Under the pieces are notes generated by a model. That model ran no database searches and was not told the DNA's origin. It saw only the letters and a list, made by a program, of their open reading frames with translations. From IMG/VR virus record IMGVR_UViG_3300025771_000189, positions 1 through 23,656 of that record: 23,656 nucleotides of DNA; one strand, written 5' to 3'. This stretch comes from a virus. Both the position numbers and the translations under genes were made by a program. Shown one piece after another: positions 676-19,986 of this stretch. Position 1 is the stretch's first letter; each line of letters starts with the position of its first letter.

Positions 676-954
676 TTACCATTTACGACAAGACCAATAC
701 CCTGCCGATAACTTTGATTTCTTTTGATCGCACTTATGTCTAGCTCTAAAAGATTTTCTAGCTTTAGGATTGGACTTTCTAATCTTCATGTTAGCGTCCC
801 CGAATCTTATGGTCTTTGTCTTAGTACCTTCTTTAGCACATACAACAAACTTTTTCTTACCGTGCCCAGGTTCTCCTTTGCGTATTCTTCTGGGTTTATT
901 AATAGCTAAACCTTTACGCTTACATCCTGTAACTACTTTCTTCTTCTCAGCCAT
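676..954 (-). CDS. Small basic Cys/His-containing phage protein, function unknown
   Basis: A 92-residue, strongly basic protein beginning MAEKKKVVTGCKRKG. It has four cysteines (about residues 11, 39, 75, 89) and ends in FRARHKCD...GYWSCRKW. The C-terminal H-x-C and S-C pairs could bind a metal, which is inference. I remember closely similar C-termini (FGD.NM.I ... RARH.CD ... YWSC+KW) from many marine phages, always without assigned function. The charge suggests nucleic-acid contact. A GTG at 975 would add seven residues but would overlap the upstream small gene by 17 bases. The ATG at 954, four bases after that gene's stop, is preferred. Neither start has a good Shine-Dalgarno sequence. Confidence 0.8.
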   Translation of the reverse strand: MAEKKKVVTGCKRKGLAINKPRRIRKGEPGHGKKKFVVCAKEGTKTKTIRFGDANMKIRKSNPKARKSFRARHKCDQKKSKLSAGYWSCRKW

Positions 955-958
955 GCTG

Positions 959-1081
959 TTAATTTTTAAACCCACGCTTCATATTAGCGTATGACTGAGG
1001 TGATATAGTAGACTTCTTCTTGCTACGACTAATGCCTAGCTTTCTTCTTCTGTTTATATTTGCGTATAGTCCTTTTTTCAT
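959..1081 (-). CDS. Small basic protein (40 aa), conserved in marine phages
   Basis: A 40-residue protein, MKKGLYANINRRRKLGISRS then KKKSTISPQSYANMKRGFKN, found by reading the gap between two larger genes. Its ATG overlaps the stop of the upstream membrane-protein gene as ATGA, and its stop lies four bases before the next start, so it fills the gap exactly. About a third of the residues are Lys or Arg. The 'LY.NIN.RRK.GISR.K..STIS...Y.NM..GF' pattern is one I recall from many marine T4-like and T7-like phage genomes, unannotated. The function is unknown; DNA or RNA binding is possible from charge only. It is often missed because it falls below common ORF length cut-offs. Confidence 0.85.
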   Translation of the reverse strand: MKKGLYANINRRRKLGISRSKKKSTISPQSYANMKRGFKN

Positions 1082-1333: not shown

Positions 1334-3517
1334 TTAAAGAGCTGAGATGATAAAAGCTAGGAGTTGTTCGTATCGTACAGACATCTTAGTGTGTTTGGTA
1401 AAACCTTCTGTTTCTTCATCTTTAAAAAGCCACTCACCATTTTCATCTTGTTTAGACCACCAAGTATTTTCACCTAGTATAGCATATCGATAAGCATCTA
1501 AACCTTCAGCTTCAAAAGCAGCTTTTACATCCTGTGCAATAACACCTATATGAATACGAGCATCGTCACCTTTCTTAACAACAGCATCTTTAAGCCTAAA
1601 CTTTTTCATTAAACCTTTTAAGGCAGTAGCAACTCTTAGTTCTGCTTCGCTTAGGTCTTCAATATCTTGTTTTAGATTACGATCAGAACCACTCCAAGCT
1701 CCTCCGTTAATATAACCGTTATCCCAAGTGTTACTAGCAGAACCTAAATCTACATTTGAATTAGGATTACTGTACATTGAGCCTGTGGGTTCTACACTAG
1801 CTTGAGCAGCAGAAGAACACGCTATGGTTATTCCAGCATTAGCACTGAAATCTCCGTCTGCAATATTTAATGTAACTCTTTCTCCATTTTCTTGGTATTG
1901 TAAGGACGCAGTGTTATTTCCTTGTGAAATTTTTATCCTACCACCAAGACCACTAGCGTGTTCGTTTTCTAATTGTAAATCTACATAAGCACTTGTTTGG
2001 TTACCTTTAGCGTATATAGTATCCTTTCCACTACCTCCATCCACAGTTAATTGATAAGAAGAATCCGCTAATGCTCCTGTTCCTATGTTGTTGTTAGTAT
2101 CGTTAACATTAAAAGTGGTATCTGCACTGTCTATCATTGTAGACTCCACAGCGTTAGCTGCTATCGTAAGTGAAGTAGAACCTGTAACATCACCAGTATG
2201 GGTAGCGTTAGTGACTTTAGCAGTGTTAGCAGTTACAGCTGTGTTGTTCGCTACCTCTGTGTCAAAGTCTGAAATGGTTGCTGCGGTCTGTGTACCTGTG
2301 TGATTAGCTCTGTTCTTTAAGTTAGCGTCTGTGTCGTTGACCGTTGCACCTGCTGCAATACCTGCAAGCTTCGTTTGTTCTGCATCGTCAAATTCATTAG
2401 TGTTAGGGTTGCTTTCATATAAGGTTTTAACATCCGCAGCTGTAGGAGAAGCACTACCATTAGCGGCAGCTGTAATCCTTCCTTGTGCATCTACTGTAAG
2501 ATTAGTCGCAGTATAAGAACCTGGAGTAACAGCAGTGTTGGCAAGCTTATCAGCAGTTATAGCATCATCAGCAATGTTAACTGTATTAATAGGACCACCT
2601 GCAACACCTGTCGCTAGAGTAGTAGCTATCTGAGCGTCTACATAAGTCTTGTTCGTAGCGTGACTACCACTAGCAGGGGCAATTAAACCTGTAACTTTAT
2701 CAACATTTTGAATATCATTTGTCTGCATATCCAAGTTACCTGACATAGAATCTCCACTCTTGTTAACTTGTAAAGCATCTTGTTGGTCTACATAACCTTT
2801 ACGAGCAGAGTGATCGCTACTAATAGGAGCACCTAGACCACTAACCATGTTACCTCCCATAGCCAAGTCACCTGTCATATTGTCCCCAGCTTTAGTAACT
2901 TGTAGTGCGTCTTGTCCGTCTACATAAGTCTTGTTAGTAAGATCATTACCTGTACTAGGAACAGCAGAGGAAGTGACTTTATTAGCACCCATGTCCAAGT
3001 TACCAGTCATCGTATCACCAGCAACATCAACAAAAGTAATATCTGCGTAGTTCTTAGTTACAGCATCTTGAGGGTTTGTAGGATCAGCAAGATTCTTAAT
3101 CTTAGCTAAATCAGCGTCGTAGTTCCCATCAACAGGGTCTTTGGTCATTGTGTTCTTACCACTACCTTCTTCTATCTCTTCGTTAAGATATAAGTTGTGT
3201 AAGTAAGCACGGTCTAGTTCTACTTCAGTAAGTACACTACCGTTCTCAAAGTCTACAAGAGCAGTATCAGATGCACTGTCTCTTTTAATTCTTATCCTAG
3301 CACCAGTCTCAGGAGCAGTAGTAAATCTGATAAGAGCAGAAGGAGATGTTATAATAGTGTAAGCTCCTGTAGAGACAGTATAAAACTTACCTCCTGGAGA
3401 ACTGCCTGTTGAATCGTCTAACTGTACAACTACATGAGTGTCATCAAGATAAGGAAAAGAAAATGCAAAGTCTGTTTGACCTGCTCCAACTGTGTAGTCT
3501 ACGTATGTATTAGCCAT
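1334..3517 (-). CDS. Tail fibre (T7 gp17-like) with C-terminal S74 intramolecular chaperone
   Basis: 727 residues against 553 in T7. Residues 1-120 match the T7 gp17 tail-attachment domain: a beta-rich start MANTYVDYTVGAGQTDFAFS, then the ENGSVLTEVELDRAYLHNLY segment. Residues 161-298 hold three tandem repeats of about 44-50 residues built on GD.M(T/S)G.LDM ... K.YVD. Residues 360-420 carry the common phage-fibre phrases EQTKLAGIAAGATVND and NRANHTGTQTAATISDFDT. The C-terminus (about 611-727) starts SDRNLKQDIEDLS and continues HIGVIAQDVKAAFEAEGL, the S74 peptidase / endosialidase-type chaperone that drives trimerisation and then cuts itself off, with Ser611 of the SD pair the expected cleavage residue. 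Mature fibre would then be about 610 residues. The receptor-binding part is probably residues 430-610. Confidence 0.93.
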   Translation of the reverse strand: MANTYVDYTVGAGQTDFAFSFPYLDDTHVVVQLDDSTGSSPGGKFYTVSTGAYTIITSPSALIRFTTAPETGARIRIKRDSASDTALVDFENGSVLTEVELDRAYLHNLYLNEEIEEGSGKNTMTKDPVDGNYDADLAKIKNLADPTNPQDAVTKNYADITFVDVAGDTMTGNLDMGANKVTSSAVPSTGNDLTNKTYVDGQDALQVTKAGDNMTGDLAMGGNMVSGLGAPISSDHSARKGYVDQQDALQVNKSGDSMSGNLDMQTNDIQNVDKVTGLIAPASGSHATNKTYVDAQIATTLATGVAGGPINTVNIADDAITADKLANTAVTPGSYTATNLTVDAQGRITAAANGSASPTAADVKTLYESNPNTNEFDDAEQTKLAGIAAGATVNDTDANLKNRANHTGTQTAATISDFDTEVANNTAVTANTAKVTNATHTGDVTGSTSLTIAANAVESTMIDSADTTFNVNDTNNNIGTGALADSSYQLTVDGGSGKDTIYAKGNQTSAYVDLQLENEHASGLGGRIKISQGNNTASLQYQENGERVTLNIADGDFSANAGITIACSSAAQASVEPTGSMYSNPNSNVDLGSASNTWDNGYINGGAWSGSDRNLKQDIEDLSEAELRVATALKGLMKKFRLKDAVVKKGDDARIHIGVIAQDVKAAFEAEGLDAYRYAILGENTWWSKQDENGEWLFKDEETEGFTKHTKMSVRYEQLLAFIISAL
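2624..3037 (-). repeat. Three tandem protein repeats in the tail fibre shaft
   Basis: These bases encode fibre residues 161-298 as three consecutive units (about 161-204, 205-248, 249-298). Each has a GD(T/N/S)M(T/S)G(N/D)L(D/A)M core, a variable linker, and a (N/R)K(T/G)YVD(G/Q/A)Q end. The third unit is a few residues longer. The DNA copies have diverged, so the repeat is old and kept at protein level. Such units usually form triple-stranded beta shaft segments in phage fibres. Confidence 0.8.
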
Positions 3518-3529
3518 GGTAATCTATTA

Positions 3530-6500
3530 TTAATTTGTTTGTTGTAAAAGTTCAAGCACTTCTTCTCGTTGCATCCCACCTTTTAAACCTGCTCTAGCTT
3601 TCATTAATGAAGAGTATTGTGCGTTTAACTCAGGATACTCTCTGAGCATCTGTCTTCTAGCTTCTTTCCTGTACTTAGTTAGAACGCTGTTTATCTGTTG
3701 GATACGAGGACTAGGAAGACCAGGTTCAGATTCTGGTGATAACCTTTGGTAGTTCCTTGACTTTATAAGTTTATTCAAGGTTTGCCTAAGAGAAAGACCA
3801 CGAAGTTTAACAGTCTTTAATAACTCTAACTGCCTATCGTTCGCTGATTGTCCTTTATCGTTTTCATACTCTAACAAATCTATCTGTCCACCTAAACTAG
3901 GAGGAGGGTTTCTAAAAGCATGATTCAAACTAGCCATCTCTGTTAGGATAGGATCGTTCTTTTTAGTTGATAATTGAATAGGATTAATAAAACCTGTACC
4001 CATCCATTGTTCTGCTACATATTCCTCTCCCAATATATTACGTTTAGTATCTAACGAACCACGCATACCTAGCTTACGTTTTACCGCATCCATGACAGAC
4101 CTTGTTTCTTTTATCGCTTGAGTATCGTAGTCAGCTGTTTGAGAAATTAAATTAGGAACTAATGAACCTGCATAATTTCTGCCTAACTTTTCTACATATC
4201 TATCAGGATCACCTAAAGCATCTGCCCACATTTGAATACCAGCTAAGTATGATTTGTTTGTAGCGTTTCTTGTTAGAGCTAATACCATTGATGTTGTAGC
4301 GTGTTCTAAAAGAGATTCATCAAAAGATGCTTCTTCTCTTATCCCTGTTTCTACTAAATCAGCTACAACACCTAACGGAGTTGCTAAAGGGTCAAGTCTT
4401 TGATAACTGAAATAAGTGTCTCCTATTTTAATGCTATAGGGTCTCCATCCAGTCGCCATTAAAGCTTCTTTTTCTCTTTCGTTACTAGGTCCACCTCCTG
4501 TTATGTATTCTCTATTATTAAAAGCAACGTCAATTAAGCCTCCTACAGTAAGTGCTCCTGTGACTACCTTACCTCTTGCCCTTGCTTTTAAGATAGGGTC
4601 TGCACTATTAAATTCAGCCAACAATCGCTGCCTTTCCTCTTTTAACACAGTAACAAAAGGAGTTCTCTCAAAAGCAAACTTTAAGATATTAGTAGGAGTA
4701 CGAACAAAAGGAACTACAAATCTCAAGTAAGGTATTTTGTTAGTGGCTTCTTGGATTACTTTACCTAATGTCTTGTCTTGTAATTCTTTAGTAAAGGTTA
4801 AGTACTGAGCTTCTTCCATTGAATACTGCATAAGTGCAGATGAATCAGGATTAAAGTTATCGTCCTTGTATTTGATGATAAAATCAGCTTTCTCTTTTCC
4901 TTTAAGACCTTGCTTATCTGCTATTAAAGAAGCTTCCCTAACAAGACCCTCCTCCGACATCATTCGTCCACCTTCAGTTACTATACCGTCAATAGTTTTA
5001 TTGATGTGTCCAGCTAATGCTTTAGGATCACGAATACCTTGTTGTATGCCTGACATAGCGGCTTTCATTCTAGCAGCCCTACGATAAGCTAATTGCTTAA
5101 AGAACTCATCAGAAGTTAACAGCAACCTACTGGGAAGTCTTATATAACTAGCGTATTTATCTATTGAATCTTTAGCTGAGTCGGAAACAAAACCACCTAT
5201 AGGAGATTCAGCTATACGCTGACCAGTTATAGAAGCTCGTTGACCTTCTTCAAAAGCACGGTTGGATGGGTCTAGTAAATTGTCTTGGTCTTTGAATGCT
5301 TGTTTTGCAAACTTACCTGCTTCCTTAAACATTTCACCGTCTGACCAAGAAGCTATAACAGCTTTGACTACATCCATGTTTCCACTCGCTATACCACCAG
5401 CAACAGCTTCTAAGGTGGTCATCACTTGAGTCAACGCATTACCCATGATATTAACCATCTGTGTCTTAGGGCCACTCAATATAGAGTTCATCCAGTATTC
5501 AGTAGGCATATCTAAGAAATGTTTACCTTGTGCTTTTTTAGCAGTCTTTAACAACCTAGCTAAACTACCCTCTAAATCGTCAGGATCAATATGCTCTCTT
5601 ACAAGGTTAACCATACGCTCAGGCTTCATGTTGCCAGAGTTATTAACAAACTCTTTGCGTATGCCTTCTATTTGCGTTTCAGCTTCATTAAGTCCTAGCT
5701 TACGCTTACCGAAACCTTCATCTCTAGCTTGTAAGGTAATAGCTGTTTCTCTTCCTATTCTACGATAAACATCTGCTACTGTTAATAGTTGTTGAAAAGC
5801 ATTCTTGAGTTTAGTTATAGATACATCACCGTAACCGTTGTCTTTAGCTTCTTGAGCTATCTCGCTAACATTCTGTATAAGTGCTTTACCTTGTTCTCTG
5901 TAAGATTGTTGTGTTATACGAATATCACGCAATACTTTCTCAGCGTCTTCTCCTTCTTTAGCTTGTGCTCTAACAGTTGTTTCGATTGCTTCGTCTATAT
6001 CTGTAATGGCATCTGTAACTGTTACTTTCTCAGGATTAGCTTCGTAGTATTTCTCTAGTAAATCTTTTAGTACAACAACATCACCATCAGTCTCTAATGC
6101 AAACTGCGGTAGTCTAGGTTTACCTCCTTTTAACAACTCATCTGCATACCCACGGAACTTATCAGGAACAGCACTAAGGAACTCATCCTCTTTACCTTTC
6201 TTAAAGTCAGGCAGTTCGCTAGGTCTTTTCACAGAAGCTAAGCCTTCGTCTGCTTGTTTTGTAGCTGTTATGATATTGTTTTTAACTTCTACATTACCTT
6301 TACCAAATACATTTTCTATAAGACTAACATAATCAGCTGTCTTTTTGTTGTGTTGGAAACCTGCTTTAGTTTCTTTTCCGACTCCGCTTTTACTTCCTTC
6401 ATATACAGAGAAGTATGCTTTACCGTTTCCTTTAACTGCGTCAAAAGCTTGTTCAACAACTAACAGCTGGTTTTCTTTTTCCTTAATAACATTAAGTACA

Positions 6501-8611
6501 TTATTAGAAATAGAAGCGTCTACTTGACCCCCTTGTACTGCTTGAGCTACCTCTTTGTTGTGTTGTGCCGATCTGTTGAAAGGATCGTAAACTTTTAAAT
6601 CTACTCCTTCTTTTTTCAACATATCAACTGCGTTATCAAACTTACCTCCTCCTATATCCACCATCTTCATTCCTTTAGTGAATATTCCAGCTTTCTTTAG
6701 TTTGTTGTAAGCGGCTGGTAGTTTAGCTACATTTATAGAAGTAGCAGCGGAAGTTATTTCTTGTTCAGGTGCACTCCAAAGATTAGGTCTTGTTTGATAA
6801 TAACGACCTTCAGCTACAAGTTTAGCCTTACCCATGTACGATCCTCTACTTGCAGATATGATCTGTGCAGAGTCTCTAAGTACTTTGTTTAATAAAGTGC
6901 TGTCACCTTTAACACCGAATAGTTGATATACTGCATCTACAATCTTTTGAAAGATATTGCGTTTATCATCTGATGGTATTCTTCTTAGTATTTGTTGTAG
7001 TTTTAAATCTGTGAAAACACCTACGAGAAACTCATCTAGGTCTTTAAACTCGTACACTCCTTTACCTACAGCTGGATCAAATACATCCTTACCTTCAAAA
7101 GCATATAAATCTTTAATCTTTTCAGAAGCTAATTTAAATGACTTAGCAAGTTCTCTAATAGGTTTAGGTGCAGCTTTATTGTTAATAACATTATCTATAT
7201 TAGACAACACTATTGACCGTTCTTTACCTCCCTGACTTACCCAAGCGTTTATTTTTTTAGCAGTAACACCGTGTAGTATTTCGTGTACTAATGTCTGTTC
7301 GTCTGCACCTTCATATAACTCAATCCTATCCTCTGATGGTTTATAGACACCTGTTATAGAACCCATATCATCAGCATCGCCTCGCACAGTAGTTATATCA
7401 CCTTCACTTACTTCAGGTTTGTAAAATACTCGTACATCTTGATCGGCTTCGTCTTTTATGATGATATTTAAATCTTTAGCTAGTTGTTGTACTTCAGGTG
7501 TGTCAGCATTTTTAGACAATTCATCTAAAGTATTTCTAACGGTTGCTGCTTTTTGTACTCCCTCTACTGGTGCACCGCCTGTCTGTATAGCTCTACCTTC
7601 TTCTTCAGCTTTCCTACCCTTCAATAAAAAGTCTTTTGTTTTATCATCTATACGACCAGCAAAGATACCAGACCTTCTTGATAAACCTGGTTCAGCGATG
7701 TCACCTCTAAAACCTGCGTTTACCAATTTAGTCGCTGCTCCTTTTAATGGTGGAGATATTTCAAACTGTTCGTATATATTTGGATTTCTTACAAACTCAT
7801 TAACAGCTTGCGATGGATAATCAAAACCTAACCAATCTTCTTTAGCCAACGCTTTTAAGAAACTTCTATACTTAGGTTTAAATTGATCTAAAGCTCCTAA
7901 CACTTCATCATGGTCTGCTTCCATATCTAAGTGCTCAAACCATTCATCTATGATGTCTCTATCAAATTCATCGATTAATTCTGGACCTCTAGCTATAGAA
8001 GCTAAGTCTTGTTGCAACCCTGTATCTACTACTGCCTGTGCTTGTCCGATTGCGTCCTTACCTTCTCCTTTAGCTTTGCGTCCTTCCTTAATAGCTTTAA
8101 GTGATTTAACGAACACACCAGCTACAGCTTCAAGACCTAGACCTTCCAACACATTCTTCATGCGTCCCTCTAACTCACCCTCGTCTTCATCGTAAGCTAA
8201 GAACTCAGTAACTGGATTCTGTAACTCTGGTACTTGTTGGATGAGATTAGACAGTCTAGCTTCCTGTCCGTTAAAGAAAGTGAAGTCAGTAGCAGCACCT
8301 GCAACAACACCTTTAGTAACAGTACCTGCTTTAGCTAATCTACCTGCTTTACCTGCGAGACCAAACAAAGGAATGAAACCTGTAGCAAACTGTGATATAC
8401 CTTCTACAGCACCGCCTGCCATAGTCTTAGAAGTACCAAGGAATCTAGTATCATAGTCAGGTAGTACATCAAAAGATAAGTAGTCTGCTAGGTTGTAAGC
8501 ACCTTGAAACGCACCTTCTATACCACGAAACGGAGCAGCTAATACATCGCCTGCTATATCAAAAAAGTCGTTCTCTTCTTCCTCGTTGTTTATATCTTCT
8601 GGTAGTGCCAT
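3530..8611 (-). CDS. gp16-like internal virion (ejection) protein with metallopeptidase-like and methyltransferase-like domains
   Basis: 1693 residues against 1318 in T7 gp16. It holds the last and longest place in the core-protein set, between gp15-like and tail fibre. I see no lytic transglycosylase motif at the N-terminus. Residues 60-110 are Gly/Ala-rich and hydrophobic. Residues 440-447 read TLVHEILH, a zinc-peptidase HEXXH motif, with a possible third ligand in DLDEFL (Glu527). Residues 605-787 look like a Rossmann methyltransferase: VDIGGGKFDN (651-660), VYDPFNR (674-680), SISNNVLNVI (700-709). Residues 1030-1420 carry ILSGPKTQMVNIMGN, RFVVPFVRTPTNILKFAFER and GWRPYSIKIGDTYFSYQRLD, phrases I remember from very large phage 'polyvalent' virion proteins. 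The role is probably to enter the cell with the DNA and build the trans-envelope channel. The gene begins four bases after the gp15-like stop without a clear Shine-Dalgarno. Confidence 0.88.
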   Translation of the reverse strand: MALPEDINNEEEENDFFDIAGDVLAAPFRGIEGAFQGAYNLADYLSFDVLPDYDTRFLGTSKTMAGGAVEGISQFATGFIPLFGLAGKAGRLAKAGTVTKGVVAGAATDFTFFNGQEARLSNLIQQVPELQNPVTEFLAYDEDEGELEGRMKNVLEGLGLEAVAGVFVKSLKAIKEGRKAKGEGKDAIGQAQAVVDTGLQQDLASIARGPELIDEFDRDIIDEWFEHLDMEADHDEVLGALDQFKPKYRSFLKALAKEDWLGFDYPSQAVNEFVRNPNIYEQFEISPPLKGAATKLVNAGFRGDIAEPGLSRRSGIFAGRIDDKTKDFLLKGRKAEEEGRAIQTGGAPVEGVQKAATVRNTLDELSKNADTPEVQQLAKDLNIIIKDEADQDVRVFYKPEVSEGDITTVRGDADDMGSITGVYKPSEDRIELYEGADEQTLVHEILHGVTAKKINAWVSQGGKERSIVLSNIDNVINNKAAPKPIRELAKSFKLASEKIKDLYAFEGKDVFDPAVGKGVYEFKDLDEFLVGVFTDLKLQQILRRIPSDDKRNIFQKIVDAVYQLFGVKGDSTLLNKVLRDSAQIISASRGSYMGKAKLVAEGRYYQTRPNLWSAPEQEITSAATSINVAKLPAAYNKLKKAGIFTKGMKMVDIGGGKFDNAVDMLKKEGVDLKVYDPFNRSAQHNKEVAQAVQGGQVDASISNNVLNVIKEKENQLLVVEQAFDAVKGNGKAYFSVYEGSKSGVGKETKAGFQHNKKTADYVSLIENVFGKGNVEVKNNIITATKQADEGLASVKRPSELPDFKKGKEDEFLSAVPDKFRGYADELLKGGKPRLPQFALETDGDVVVLKDLLEKYYEANPEKVTVTDAITDIDEAIETTVRAQAKEGEDAEKVLRDIRITQQSYREQGKALIQNVSEIAQEAKDNGYGDVSITKLKNAFQQLLTVADVYRRIGRETAITLQARDEGFGKRKLGLNEAETQIEGIRKEFVNNSGNMKPERMVNLVREHIDPDDLEGSLARLLKTAKKAQGKHFLDMPTEYWMNSILSGPKTQMVNIMGNALTQVMTTLEAVAGGIASGNMDVVKAVIASWSDGEMFKEAGKFAKQAFKDQDNLLDPSNRAFEEGQRASITGQRIAESPIGGFVSDSAKDSIDKYASYIRLPSRLLLTSDEFFKQLAYRRAARMKAAMSGIQQGIRDPKALAGHINKTIDGIVTEGGRMMSEEGLVREASLIADKQGLKGKEKADFIIKYKDDNFNPDSSALMQYSMEEAQYLTFTKELQDKTLGKVIQEATNKIPYLRFVVPFVRTPTNILKFAFERTPFVTVLKEERQRLLAEFNSADPILKARARGKVVTGALTVGGLIDVAFNNREYITGGGPSNEREKEALMATGWRPYSIKIGDTYFSYQRLDPLATPLGVVADLVETGIREEASFDESLLEHATTSMVLALTRNATNKSYLAGIQMWADALGDPDRYVEKLGRNYAGSLVPNLISQTADYDTQAIKETRSVMDAVKRKLGMRGSLDTKRNILGEEYVAEQWMGTGFINPIQLSTKKNDPILTEMASLNHAFRNPPPSLGGQIDLLEYENDKGQSANDRQLELLKTVKLRGLSLRQTLNKLIKSRNYQRLSPESEPGLPSPRIQQINSVLTKYRKEARRQMLREYPELNAQYSSLMKARAGLKGGMQREEVLELLQQTN

Positions 8612-8615
8612 AGTA

Positions 8616-10757
8616 TTAATCTATTTCGTTTAAAGCGTTTTTAAAAAGATTCCTTTGATTCCTAATAAATTCCAATACATCCTCTTCTCCTATCTTAGTA
8701 GCTTTCTTAACCACATCGTTGAAAGTTTTATTAGATTCTCTTTCGCTTTTGCTTTTATCAAGTAAAGGTATTAATTCTAAAATGTCTGCTTTTGATACTA
8801 AAGGAAATTGAGAAGAGTTGAGCAACAACGGATCAAATCTAATACCATAAGGAGTAACAGGTTGCTCTTCAAGTAAAGCCTCTCCTAATAGTCCTTTAGC
8901 GGCTTGTACCTGAACTAAAGAATTTAAAGCTTCTTCTCGTTCTTTTTTTGTAAACTCAACCCTTTTTATTTCTTTTCCTACAGAACCTCCAAAACCTGAT
9001 CTACTACTATAATATTGTTTAGGTTGTTGTGCTTTAATTTTAGGTATTTCACCAGTAGCTATTAACCTTAGTCTAGTTATTGTTTCCCCATCTGTTTTCC
9101 ATAGATTCTGAAAAGCTTTCTTTCTTTCTTTTGCTTCTATATTAGGGTCTCCAAAAACACTCAAGTCATTATTTAAGCTTAATTGTTTAGCTTCCTCGTC
9201 GTTAAAAACAGAAGAAAAAACACCTGGTTTACTTGCCTCTTTGGATTGTGCTACTTTTATTTTAACTTGTTCTTTGTCTGTTAAGAATTTAAGTCTAGAT
9301 TTTAAAGCGTTCTCTTGTTCTCTTTTGTATTCTTTCTTGGTAGTCCTAATAAAATCTTTTAGCTGCCTAGTCACTTCAGCTCTGTCTGAACCTATAGGAC
9401 TACTTAACAGACTATTTAATTGATCTTGAATTTCAGTTTGAAAAGAATCCATGTAAAAGTTCTGTATATTCACTAACTCTTCGTCTCCCATTAAAACATC
9501 ATCTGCTAATTGAGTGCTTGTTATTATAGTTTCATAAGCTGTGTTTAAATCTTTTAAATTAAAATCAATAGCTTGAGCAGGTCCGAAAGGGTCTCTTAGA
9601 ATTTTATTCATTCTAAAATCTTTTGGATCAATATCAGTTTTAATAAAATCATCCACATTACGTCTTAACTGTGCTAATCCTATTTGATCGGTACTAAAAG
9701 CTTCTTCTTGTTTAACAGCGAGGATTAAATTATCTATACTATCGTATGTGTTACCATTGTAAGTTCCTTCTCCGTTTATCTCTATATCAGTATGGGCATT
9801 TTGAAACTCTGCTACTTTTTGCTCTACTAAATCTACTCGTTCTTTATCTTCTAATTTACGAACAGCTTCAGAAGTACGCTCGATCATATTTTCATAACCG
9901 TCATATTCGATTTCTGTCATCTTAGCAGCCCCAATGTTTATGTTCTTACTAGCCCACAATAACAAGCTATCAGCTTTTTCTTCCATTCCATTTTTAGCTA
10001 AGTTCTCGAATACTTTTCCCAAAAGATCACGTTGTTCCGCTGCACTAAACGAATTAAGATTTTCCCAAGCCTCAGACAACGAAGCAGCTGTCACCTCGTC
10101 ATAATCTCCTAAATTACTACCCTCTTTAGCTAATTCGTAGAAAACACTAGTAGTACCGAAACCTGTATCACCTTTAGCTATTCGACTTTTTTGTGCGTCG
10201 TATTGCCTAACAAGAGGTAAAATCTGTGGGTTTATTGCTTGTTGTAAACCTTCTCGTGCAAAGCCTGACTCAGATAAACCAGGATTATTTTCCACAAACT
10301 GTTGTTGAACATTAGCTATTATATCAGAAGTACCTAAGTCTTCGTCTCCTTCTTCTGGATTATCTAATCTACTGTAGACTTGTTCCATTAACAAACGACT
10401 AGAAGCTTGTCCTACTGCTCTCAATTTCCTCTTCTGATTAACAGGAGAAGTAAGCCAACTCATCGCACCTTTTCTTACTTGCTTATCAAACTCTCCTTCT
10501 GTCTTTTGAAGCATCGCTTGAATCTCTTCAGGACTCTTCCTTGATAACTCATCTTCAAATTGTTCTGCTTCTATATCGGCTACCTGTGTGTACTGCTGTA
10601 AGATAGGATTAACCTGTGACAAAGCATCAGCAAGGTCCATCAACTTATTCCTTGGTGCTCGTACCTGTGCTACACTGTACTGACCTGCTCGTTGAATAGT
10701 AGGTTGAATGCCTGGAACTGCACCTCCTAATCCTTGTACTTGTACTCGTTCTGCCAT
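8616..10757 (-). CDS. gp15-like internal virion protein
   Basis: 713 residues (T7 gp15 is 747). It is almost wholly helical, rich in Gln, Glu and Lys, without signal peptide or membrane segment. In T7, gp15 forms part of the internal core and is ejected to build the DNA tunnel through periplasm and inner membrane with gp14 and gp16. The call rests mainly on size, composition and place between the gp14-like and gp16-like genes; I cannot point to a catalytic motif. The start is well supported: the ATG overlaps the gp14-like stop as TAATG, and AGGAG lies six bases upstream. A helical run around residues 575-640 (KIKAQQPKQYYSSRSGFG then charged) breaks the pattern with a flexible Ser/Gly stretch. 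Confidence 0.85.
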   Translation of the reverse strand: MAERVQVQGLGGAVPGIQPTIQRAGQYSVAQVRAPRNKLMDLADALSQVNPILQQYTQVADIEAEQFEDELSRKSPEEIQAMLQKTEGEFDKQVRKGAMSWLTSPVNQKRKLRAVGQASSRLLMEQVYSRLDNPEEGDEDLGTSDIIANVQQQFVENNPGLSESGFAREGLQQAINPQILPLVRQYDAQKSRIAKGDTGFGTTSVFYELAKEGSNLGDYDEVTAASLSEAWENLNSFSAAEQRDLLGKVFENLAKNGMEEKADSLLLWASKNINIGAAKMTEIEYDGYENMIERTSEAVRKLEDKERVDLVEQKVAEFQNAHTDIEINGEGTYNGNTYDSIDNLILAVKQEEAFSTDQIGLAQLRRNVDDFIKTDIDPKDFRMNKILRDPFGPAQAIDFNLKDLNTAYETIITSTQLADDVLMGDEELVNIQNFYMDSFQTEIQDQLNSLLSSPIGSDRAEVTRQLKDFIRTTKKEYKREQENALKSRLKFLTDKEQVKIKVAQSKEASKPGVFSSVFNDEEAKQLSLNNDLSVFGDPNIEAKERKKAFQNLWKTDGETITRLRLIATGEIPKIKAQQPKQYYSSRSGFGGSVGKEIKRVEFTKKEREEALNSLVQVQAAKGLLGEALLEEQPVTPYGIRFDPLLLNSSQFPLVSKADILELIPLLDKSKSERESNKTFNDVVKKATKIGEEDVLEFIRNQRNLFKNALNEID

Positions 10758-11359
10758 TATCTTCTCCTACCTGTCATTGCTTGTGTATAACTCTGGGCTG
10801 CTGTAGTTCCTGTTTTTGATGATGAACCCATCCTACTTTTAATATCAAGTCCTGTTCTGTATCCACTAAGTCCACCGCTGATAGCACCTAAACCTGCTGT
10901 TAATAAACTAGGTCTATCTATAGGTTGATTAATACTGATAAGTCTTTGTTGAGAAGCTAATCCAGCTTGTTCTAATCCTAGCTGTGTACCTAATGCACTC
11001 ATCTCTTGTTGTCTTAAAGTTGCCGCTCTATACCCTGCTTCCTGTCTAGTATAGTCATCCATCAAAGCTTGAACACTAGCACCTGCAACACCTGCTTCCC
11101 CTGCTGAAACCCTAGCTCTAGCTAACGCTTCTTGGGATTTCCTACTGACTTGTTCAAGTTCCCTAGCCGTAGCTTCTTGCTCTTGTGCTTGTCGCATCCT
11201 AATTGAGGACTGTTCCTGTAACGCTCTTTGACGCTCCGCTGCTGCTGATTGGGCTTGATAGGCTGCTTGTGCTTTAGCTTGTTGTCTTTGCCCTGCATAT
11301 CCTGCAATAGATGAACCTACTGATGCTGTTATAGCTGCTATTGATATTGGGTCACACAT
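10757..11359 (-). CDS. gp14-like internal virion protein
   Basis: 200 residues (T7 gp14 is 196). N-terminus MCDPISIAAITASVGSSIAG is hydrophobic and small-residue rich, followed by a long Ala/Gln/Arg helix (about residues 22-85) and a second Gly-rich hydrophobic patch near 150-170 (LLTAGLGAISGGLSGY). The C-terminus is basic (TGRRR). This is the usual gp14 plan. In T7, gp14 is ejected first and inserts into the outer membrane. Upstream AGAGAGGA seven bases before the ATG is a good ribosome binding site. The start lies one base after the gp13-like stop, and its own stop overlaps the next ATG. Confidence 0.88.
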   Translation of the reverse strand: MCDPISIAAITASVGSSIAGYAGQRQQAKAQAAYQAQSAAAERQRALQEQSSIRMRQAQEQEATARELEQVSRKSQEALARARVSAGEAGVAGASVQALMDDYTRQEAGYRAATLRQQEMSALGTQLGLEQAGLASQQRLISINQPIDRPSLLTAGLGAISGGLSGYRTGLDIKSRMGSSSKTGTTAAQSYTQAMTGRRR

Positions 11360-18426: not shown

Positions 18427-19986
18427 TTACTCTTCTTGTGGTTGTTGTTGACTAGCCATGTACTGCTCTTGTGCAGCATTGATAGCAGGTGCTACAGCAG
18501 GTCCACCCAACTTCATCATCATCTCTTGTTGTTGGGCTTGCTGCATAGCTTGTTGAATTTCTTCTTCTGATTTAATCAGTCCTTCAGTCTCGATACCTAA
18601 CGCTGTGGCTCTTCTTTTGAAGTAGTCAGATACATTAACATATTGTGCAACTGCTTGTGGACCAACGATTTGATTAGCTCCTGCAAGAAATAGATCGAGC
18701 TTTTGTAAATCATTACCTCGTCCTAGTGCTTCAACACCAGTAACAATAGTAGGTTTAACAATGTCTTTAGGTAACTTAGGAAGTCTTCCTTCTTTACTCA
18801 TCCTTGCCATTAACCTAGTAACGACAGGCATTTGAAACTCTTGTGACAATAAAGAATACAGACCACCAAGTGCAGCTTCCAACTCTTGAGATAACATTCT
18901 TATCTCCTCTGCTGTTACTCGTTCTGCATCTCTGACTACACCACTGTTAAGTAGGAAAGCTTGAGATAGTCTATCACTAATCCCATTCATTACTCCTTGT
19001 GCAGTACGGAAGTCATTGAACTTGTTAAGTTGTAAAACAGATACATCTCCTTCAGACCCTTGTACAATTGCACCGTTAGGAGATTCAGATAAAGTCTTAG
19101 CCCTGGTTGTACCGTTAGGATTAACCATGAACAATACCTTGGCTGCTGCTGCACTACCTTCGACTATTGCTTTTGTTAACGACTCTAAAGATTTAAGATC
19201 ACCAATGTACTCCTCAACAAATCCTCGTCCGTAATCTTCACCATCTATTCTTGTATAACGAAGAGGTAGGAATGGAGTCTTCTCGATAGGATACCTACCC
19301 TTTGACTCTTCAATAACAATTCCTTTAACATCTTGTTGTACTACATATTCATTACCTTCTCTAACTACAGAGGTGTACAAGTCACAGCTATTCTCTTTCT
19401 CTTGACGATATACCTCTTCTCTTACAGACTCAGGTAACATCATTGGAGCAACAGTTTCTTTGATAGCTATGTGTGTTACATTACCCATTGGGTCTCTCTT
19501 AACACAGTAACGATCCAGTCTGAATACTCTCATTCCACCTTCATCAGGTAAGTATAACAAAGTATTACCTGTCACTAATAGATTCTTTAACGCTTCAAAC
19601 ACTCCTACTCGAAATGCTTCAACTTCTACTTCTTGAGATACACTTCGTTCTACATCTGCTAATGCTTTCTCTAAGTCAGATCGTAATTGCTCTCCTCCCT
19701 CTGGTCCTAACTCCTGCTTTGCTTTATCTAATTCATACCTGTCTATAACAAGACGGAAGAATGGAGCGTTAGGTGGTAACAGTGCTAACAATAACTTAGA
19801 TGCTAGGTTGTTTACTCCTCTAGCTCCTACTCCTTGATAAGGTGTGTAATACTTAGTAGCGTAGTTGTGTCCATCGGGTGGCATTATGTAAGGAATAGTC
19901 AACTCAGATGAGGTACGACCTCGATCCAAGAAAGACCACCTTTGGTTCTCTAAGCTATGATATAGCCCTTGGGCTGTTTCTTTCAT
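18427..19986 (-). CDS. Portal protein (T7 gp8-like head-to-tail connector)
   Basis: 519 residues (T7 gp8 is 536). N-terminal LYHSLENQRWSFLDRGRTSS and the following LTIPYIMPPDG ... YTPYQGVGARGVNNLASKLL with LLPPNAPFF (about 70-78) are typical of T7-type portals. Central landmarks include NLLVTGNTLLYLP, PFLPLRYTRIDGEDYGRGFVEEY and ERVTAEEIRMLSQELEAALGG. The C-terminal 50 residues are Gln- and Met-rich (IQQAMQQAQQQEMMMKLGG) and probably flexible. Twelve copies form the vertex ring for packaging and tail attachment. The start follows the upstream stop directly (TAG then ATG). Confidence 0.96.
   Translation of the reverse strand: MKETAQGLYHSLENQRWSFLDRGRTSSELTIPYIMPPDGHNYATKYYTPYQGVGARGVNNLASKLLLALLPPNAPFFRLVIDRYELDKAKQELGPEGGEQLRSDLEKALADVERSVSQEVEVEAFRVGVFEALKNLLVTGNTLLYLPDEGGMRVFRLDRYCVKRDPMGNVTHIAIKETVAPMMLPESVREEVYRQEKENSCDLYTSVVREGNEYVVQQDVKGIVIEESKGRYPIEKTPFLPLRYTRIDGEDYGRGFVEEYIGDLKSLESLTKAIVEGSAAAAKVLFMVNPNGTTRAKTLSESPNGAIVQGSEGDVSVLQLNKFNDFRTAQGVMNGISDRLSQAFLLNSGVVRDAERVTAEEIRMLSQELEAALGGLYSLLSQEFQMPVVTRLMARMSKEGRLPKLPKDIVKPTIVTGVEALGRGNDLQKLDLFLAGANQIVGPQAVAQYVNVSDYFKRRATALGIETEGLIKSEEEIQQAMQQAQQQEMMMKLGGPAVAPAINAAQEQYMASQQQPQEE

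Follow-up and report, generated by a model that had tools for sequence, protein, structure and literature searches.

A predicted class I methyltransferase domain within a hypervariable slot of the gp16-like ejection protein of a marine T7-like virus

Polyvalent proteins, a class described from phages and from conjugative elements (Iyer et al. 2017, PMC5512222), are giant multidomain chains which are encoded among virion genes and combine unrelated enzyme domains with a zincin-like peptidase. The main text of that paper describes fusions with portal, ART and InPase domains and a methylase of the EcoKI/TaqI-like DNA adenine type, which carries the motif NPP(Y/F) and is linked to a helicase; it does not mention gp16. 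P1 DarB, an ejected methylase-helicase that acts against restriction, likewise is a DNA adenine methylase. The second system of relevance is gp16 of phage T7, for which a domain map has been established comprising a periplasmic transglycosylase (residues 1-156), a tape on gp15 (157-228), TMH I (243-410), the gp16-C region located in the host cytoplasm (411-1118), which binds DNA, and TMH II (1119-1290); in other gp16-like proteins the transglycosylase domain moves or is absent (PMC8954989). Among open-licence papers we found none that links gp16 slots, or the methyltransferase described below, to ejection.

The window, that is the entire stretch of DNA analysed here, is the IMG/VR record IMGVR_UViG_3300025771_000189 of 23,656 bases and derives from a marine T7-like virus of bacteria. 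Its minus strand carries a T7-like virion gene block with portal, capsid, tail tube, gp13, gp14, (gp15), a gp16-like protein, a tail fibre of the gp17 type and the beginning of a terminase gene, and the order around the gp16-like reading frame is that of T7, gp8-10-11-(12)-13-14-(15)-[16]-17. The landmarks of the block are the following.

18427..19986, minus strand: portal protein, gp8-like (Pfam Head-tail_con, 5.5e-85)
10757..11359, minus strand: gp14-like ejection protein (Pfam T7_gp14, 1.3e-29)
8616..10757, minus strand: gp15-like tunnel protein of 713 amino acids, assigned by position (synteny), no Pfam match
3530..8611, minus strand: gp16-like ejection (internal virion) protein of 1693 amino acids (open reading frame; phrog_6651 'internal virion protein', E 2e-55; synteny)
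1334..3517, minus strand: gp17-like tail fibre with a Peptidase_S74 chaperone (Pfam Phage_T7_tail, 2.6e-26, and Peptidase_S74)

The interval between tail fibre and terminase additionally encodes a small Lys/Arg-rich, Cys-containing protein of 99 amino acids without a Pfam match (676..975, minus strand).

The gp16-like protein sits in the gp15-gp17 position and has a C-terminal module homologous to that of known ejection proteins, which identifies it as a gp16 of the T7 type. Its modules are as follows.

8063..8611, minus strand: conserved N-module, residues 1-183, resembling the tape/TMH I part of T7 gp16 (alignment to relatives)
6194..8062, minus strand: hypervariable cargo slot, residues 184-806 (DNA breakpoints; conservation profile)
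6818..7486, minus strand: predicted zincin-type metallopeptidase domain, residues ~376-598, with HEILH at 443-447 and a conserved E527 (motif)
6251..6799, minus strand: predicted class I SAM-methyltransferase domain, residues 605-787 (AlphaFold2, Foldseek, Methyltransf_23)
3533..6193, minus strand: conserved C-module, residues 807-1693, resembling gp16-C (alignable in ~100% of the relatives)

With T7 gp16 and the 'internal virion protein D' of the Autographiviridae the protein shares the gene order and the position of a hydrophobic N-module, and its C-module is homologous to that of cultured marine members of this family. It differs from T7 gp16 in its length (1693 as compared to 1318 amino acids), in the slot of 623 residues with its HEXXH and methyltransferase domains and in that no transglycosylase was detected. 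The N-module is alignable in 92-100% of the relatives at an identity of 0.75-0.94. Pfam found no lytic transglycosylase domain at the N-terminus, which starts near the position that follows this domain. In cultured marine relatives, gp16 residues ~158-290 are the counterpart of residues 51-183 of the window protein, which include two hydrophobic helices; the window protein therefore seems to lack the transglycosylase domain, and its slot seems to follow the TMH I-like region. As neither module matched the solved T7 gp16 structures, whether searched as a single sequence or as a profile of eight members, this topology rests on the cultured relatives and on the gene order. Pfam domains and HEXXH motifs are both lacking in the gp16 of seven cultured relatives, and a cultured phage that bears cargo was therefore not found.

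By analogy to the T7 topology, cargo in the slot would end up at the cytoplasmic face of the inner membrane. One might instead imagine that the cargo stays with the gp15-gp16 tunnel and modifies a component of the envelope, as the slot follows a tape/TMH I-homologous module whose exact membrane crossing may differ in this protein. SAM however is a cytoplasmic cofactor. In addition, the part of T7 gp16 past TMH I has been placed in the cytoplasm (PMC8954989), and periplasmic action is to our mind the least probable of all readings considered here.

The initial annotation had called a methyltransferase-like domain in residues 605-787 from three motifs, VDIGGGKFDN (651-660), VYDPFNR (674-680) and SISNNVLNVI (700-709), all of which, like the domain itself, lie at the positions given within the 1693-residue reading frame. 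The conserved elements are these.

6632..6661, minus strand: motif I VDIGGGKFDN, residues 651-660, the SAM-binding loop after strand 1 (conservation in 59 homologues)
6572..6586, minus strand: DPFNR, residues 676-680, the acidic end of strand 2 followed by a family-specific NR (conservation in 59 homologues)
6485..6505, minus strand: NNVLNVI, residues 703-709, at the position of motif IV after strand 4 (conservation in 59 homologues)

An AlphaFold2 model of the domain built from the family alignment (59 sequences) has a pLDDT of 88.6 and a pTM of 0.86 and displays the strand and helix order of class I enzymes, hence a Rossmann fold. Foldseek returned 276 matches in the PDB at E <= 0.001, and nearly all of the best 50 of these are methyltransferases, the nearest solved folds being Trm9-Trm112, RPA2492-SAM, METTL6, UbiG and methyltransferases of peptides and natural products. 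At the sequence level the window fragment matches PHROG 14016 (E 1.7e-12) and, below the 27-bit cut-off, Pfam Methyltransf_23 (E 5e-5, 23.5 bits), which is matched by 53 of the 59 family members with a best E of 3.1e-10. A phmmer search of the fragment against the PDB gave nothing useful (best E 0.051) and the family profile only weak matches there, 13 of 14 of them to methyltransferases. In motif I, D652 and G654 are conserved in 58/58 and G656 in 59/59 homologues; the acid of strand 2, D676, and R680 are found in 59/59 and N679 in 56/59. N704, L706, N707 and V708 are invariant among the 59 sequences, and R680 and N685, which also belong to the family signature, are invariant or nearly so. 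Residues of the SAM site and family-specific residues thus stay unchanged across a sequence divergence of more than 50%. A chance motif was considered and is ruled out by the Pfam and PHROG 14016 matches, the AlphaFold2 model and the spread of Methyltransf_23 across the family. Residues 605-787 are therefore predicted to be a METHYLTRANSFERASE by fold, of class I and SAM-dependent. The original proposal of such a fold in a gp16-like protein is borne out by AlphaFold2, Foldseek, the conservation of the motifs and the T7 gene order, and its statement that T7 gp16 contains nothing comparable is in line with the domain map in the literature (PMC8954989). As to the third motif, which had been called motif IV-like, the position just after strand 4 holds but the sequence does not: the [DNS]PP[FYW] pattern of DNA-amino-methylases occurs in none of the 59 family members.

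What then would such an enzyme methylate? It had been suggested that the domain could modify phage DNA, host DNA, RNA or protein at time zero of infection, with the evasion of restriction as an example. In this DarB-like example the domain would methylate the incoming phage DNA, or that of the host, and so block cutting by restriction enzymes. Ejected DNA methylases with such a role are indeed known, as exemplified by P1 DarB in the main text of the survey cited above (PMC5512222), which has in common with the window protein that a methyltransferase is carried in the virion; moreover, T7 gp16-C binds DNA (PMC8954989). Some members of the family also weakly resemble TIGR04096, a putative methyltransferase associated with Dnd (9/59, best value 0.0016), and PADLOC mad2 (21/59, best value 2.1e-5), and one relative, L099, contains a fusion to FtsK gamma. 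The window sequence itself matches neither mad2 nor TIGR04096, however, and these similarities were not used to assign function. DarB-type methylases are EcoKI/TaqI-like and linked to helicases, whereas a Pfam scan of the whole window protein found neither a target-recognition nor a SWI2/SNF2 helicase domain, even though a diverged domain could escape such a scan. Furthermore, the best 50 of the 276 structure matches included no conspicuous DNA methylase. The domain, Methyltransf_23-like and devoid of the NPP(Y/F) motif, hence is not a DNA methylase of the DarB type or of the type described in the main text on polyvalent proteins. The missing [DNS]PP[FYW] motif together with the structure matches weakens the anti-restriction proposal; we have set it aside as the leading reading and regard it as decidedly unlikely. 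The modelled structure instead points to methyltransferases of tRNA, small molecules and peptides. With the Trm9/METTL6/UbiG-type enzymes the aligned regions share about 9-20% identity, DPFNR and NVLNV are specific to the window family, and likeness of fold alone does not permit a substrate to be deduced. Most likely, the enzyme would act not on DNA but on tRNA, protein or a small molecule.

The site at which the domain is carried is the more far-reaching result. Compared with L011, the window DNA is 85.6% identical across the late genes up to gp16 residue 183 and 91.9% identical from residue 807 onward, yet in L011 the slot between these breakpoints holds ~124 unrelated residues in place of the 623 of the window. 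The breakpoints are similar in L013, L014, L016, L019 and L068, and residues 601-750 are alignable in only ~10% of the relatives. Residues 184-806 are thus replaced wholesale between phages which otherwise are 86-92% identical in DNA. Among the relatives the slot ranges from about 120 to 820 amino acids, and its contents, where they score above Pfam cut-offs, include ART-PolyVal (L013), GNAT (L022), HTH_40 repeats (L030), GYF_2 (L038) and LPD37 (L058); the other cargoes belong mostly to enzyme families. In slots without a Pfam call we noted by eye a ParB-like stretch in L036 and ART-like stretches in L040 and L011. The gp16 reading frame of L016 (7994-13315) is broken within the slot into frames of 689 and 1112 amino acids, which may stem from a frameshift introduced by sequencing or may be genuine.

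Four relatives that carry the methyltransferase (L003, L005, L008 and L009) differ from the window by a dS of only 0.19-0.40 in this domain, whereas in the same pairs the HEXXH domain has a dS of 0.97-1.21 and the C-module one of 1.14-1.70; as the high values are near saturation, only the contrast in dS is used here. The dN/dS of the methyltransferase is 0.08-0.15 in the same pairs. Because its dS lies far below those of the other two regions and its dN/dS is this low, the METHYLTRANSFERASE moves as a cassette of its own, with recent exchange and with purifying selection on a working protein. In L005, roughly 75-90 additional residues separate the methyltransferase from the C-module (4400-4700); near-repeats that contain ADEGL flank this insert, an arrangement which suggests growth of the slot via recombination at short repeats. 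The variation in slot size, and the fact that the protein can be built without a methyltransferase, could also be taken to mean that the fold is an inert structural filler, or a module that binds SAM without catalysis. The low dN/dS, the invariance of the SAM-site and family-specific residues and the predominance of enzyme families among the other cargoes all speak against a mere spacer, which we consider very improbable.

The HEXXH domain adjoins the methyltransferase, and this neighbour, the swappable slot and the polyvalent class were all missed in the initial annotation. H443, E444, H447 and E527 are invariant in 25 sequences, in the arrangement H-E-x-x-H plus a downstream Y/E. Since the AlphaFold2 model is weak (pLDDT 58.9, no fold match at E <= 0.001), the term zincin is taken from the motif and from precedent; the few low-ranked zincin folds among the matches, with E near 1, are not counted as evidence. 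The HEXXH pattern is found in 28 of 34 complete relatives. The remaining six are without a domain recognisable by this pattern, so that cutting by it is not obligatory in the group. Six of the 28 HEXXH-bearing relatives also have the methyltransferase, and three of these six are the window's own sequence from other assemblies.

Beyond the window, at least 258 IMG/VR stretches encode relatives of the methyltransferase according to a scan guided by a profile (an earlier one, started from another seed, had given 132). After removal of near-duplicates, 71 of 75 scoreable members reside in phage reading frames of 400-3500 amino acids, many of them of 1500-3500, and only four stand alone. The partner domains are a Mu-type portal (Portal_Mu), ART-PolyVal, PAPS_reduct, InPase, Phage_lysozyme2 (tail lysozyme), FtsK_gamma and Zeta_toxin. 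The stand-alone relatives in PHROG 14016 are encoded by Vibrio schizoT4-like phages in the vicinity of head genes; they are homologous to the window domain at 27-40% identity, but with ~215 amino acids they are not cargo of an ejection protein. A contig search of genomes gave 14 matches, mostly giant reading frames in MAG contigs. Stand-alone relatives of 200-237 amino acids were seen in Legionella santicrucis (L175), in a MAG of the Legionellaceae (L176) and in one of a gammaproteobacterium (L174).

The same methyltransferase family is encoded upstream of gp16-like C-modules that are only 24-36% identical (L140, L245, L122, L126 and L148), and the HEXXH stretch precedes the methyltransferase in L140 and L122 and follows it in L245. 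Such recurrence in five lineages is not expected of chance insertion. In L126 (2370-8400) gp16 is apparently split, the first reading frame comprising the N-module, a zeta-toxin domain and a C-terminal methyltransferase and the second the C-module. It has to be considered that the enzyme, made late, acts in the producing cell, where it would methylate virion components or a host target at assembly and be packaged merely as a part of gp16. The location of the gene in the late virion cluster would fit this, as does the description, in the main text on polyvalent proteins, of peptidases that can act before packaging (PMC5512222). However, action in the producing cell would explain neither why the enzyme is retained in the ejection protein of five diverged gp16 lineages nor why it is fused to portal-type and other giant proteins, and we deem it unlikely.

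The window protein is best regarded as an instance of the polyvalent-protein strategy within an ejection protein of the T7 type. It combines unrelated domains, a methyltransferase, an ejection-protein module and probably the HEXXH domain, in one chain, and it is encoded in a virion gene block with the order of T7. The domains characteristic of the polyvalent network (ART-PolyVal, LPDs such as LPD37, InPase) occur not in the window protein but in the slots of its relatives and in other proteins of the methyltransferase family. The explanation we favour, and hold to be somewhat on the probable side, is that the methyltransferase is exchangeable cargo of a T7-type gp16 and serves as an effector in the manner of polyvalent proteins. 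It is plausible by analogy to T7 that this gp16 enters the host with the DNA. The protein would be packed in the head and ejected along with the DNA, and the position of the slot between the tape/TMH I-like module and gp16-C would bring the cargo to the cytoplasmic side, where it would refold in the host cytoplasm. The neighbouring HEXXH domain may cut it free, and the enzyme would then methylate a host substrate while no phage gene is yet expressed, which may serve to blunt early defence or to aid takeover. It counts against this explanation that the narrow portal channel requires the cargo to unfold and to refold. More tentatively, and as a possibility to which we give clearly less credence, T7-type gp16 may be a general platform for effector delivery in the ocean, with a polymorphic slot, facing the cytoplasm, that takes up interchangeable enzymes, usually together with a protease for release. 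The methyltransferase family would then be specialised for delivery by the virion, its enzymes modifying host RNA, protein or a signalling molecule within moments of infection, ahead of phage gene expression.

Our work carries the idea of polyvalent proteins over to T7-like gp16 and documents exchange at the DNA level between near-identical phages. It also suggests what PHROG 14016 and its relatives may do; to this large phage family, encoded in at least 258 IMG/VR stretches, no function has been assigned. Early takeover and evasion of defence are usually studied via those phage genes that are expressed first. The swappable gp16 slot of marine podoviruses would provide a direct route to proteins that act even earlier, and listing the contents of the slot across phages, cargo by cargo, may be a way to seek weapons that precede viral gene expression.
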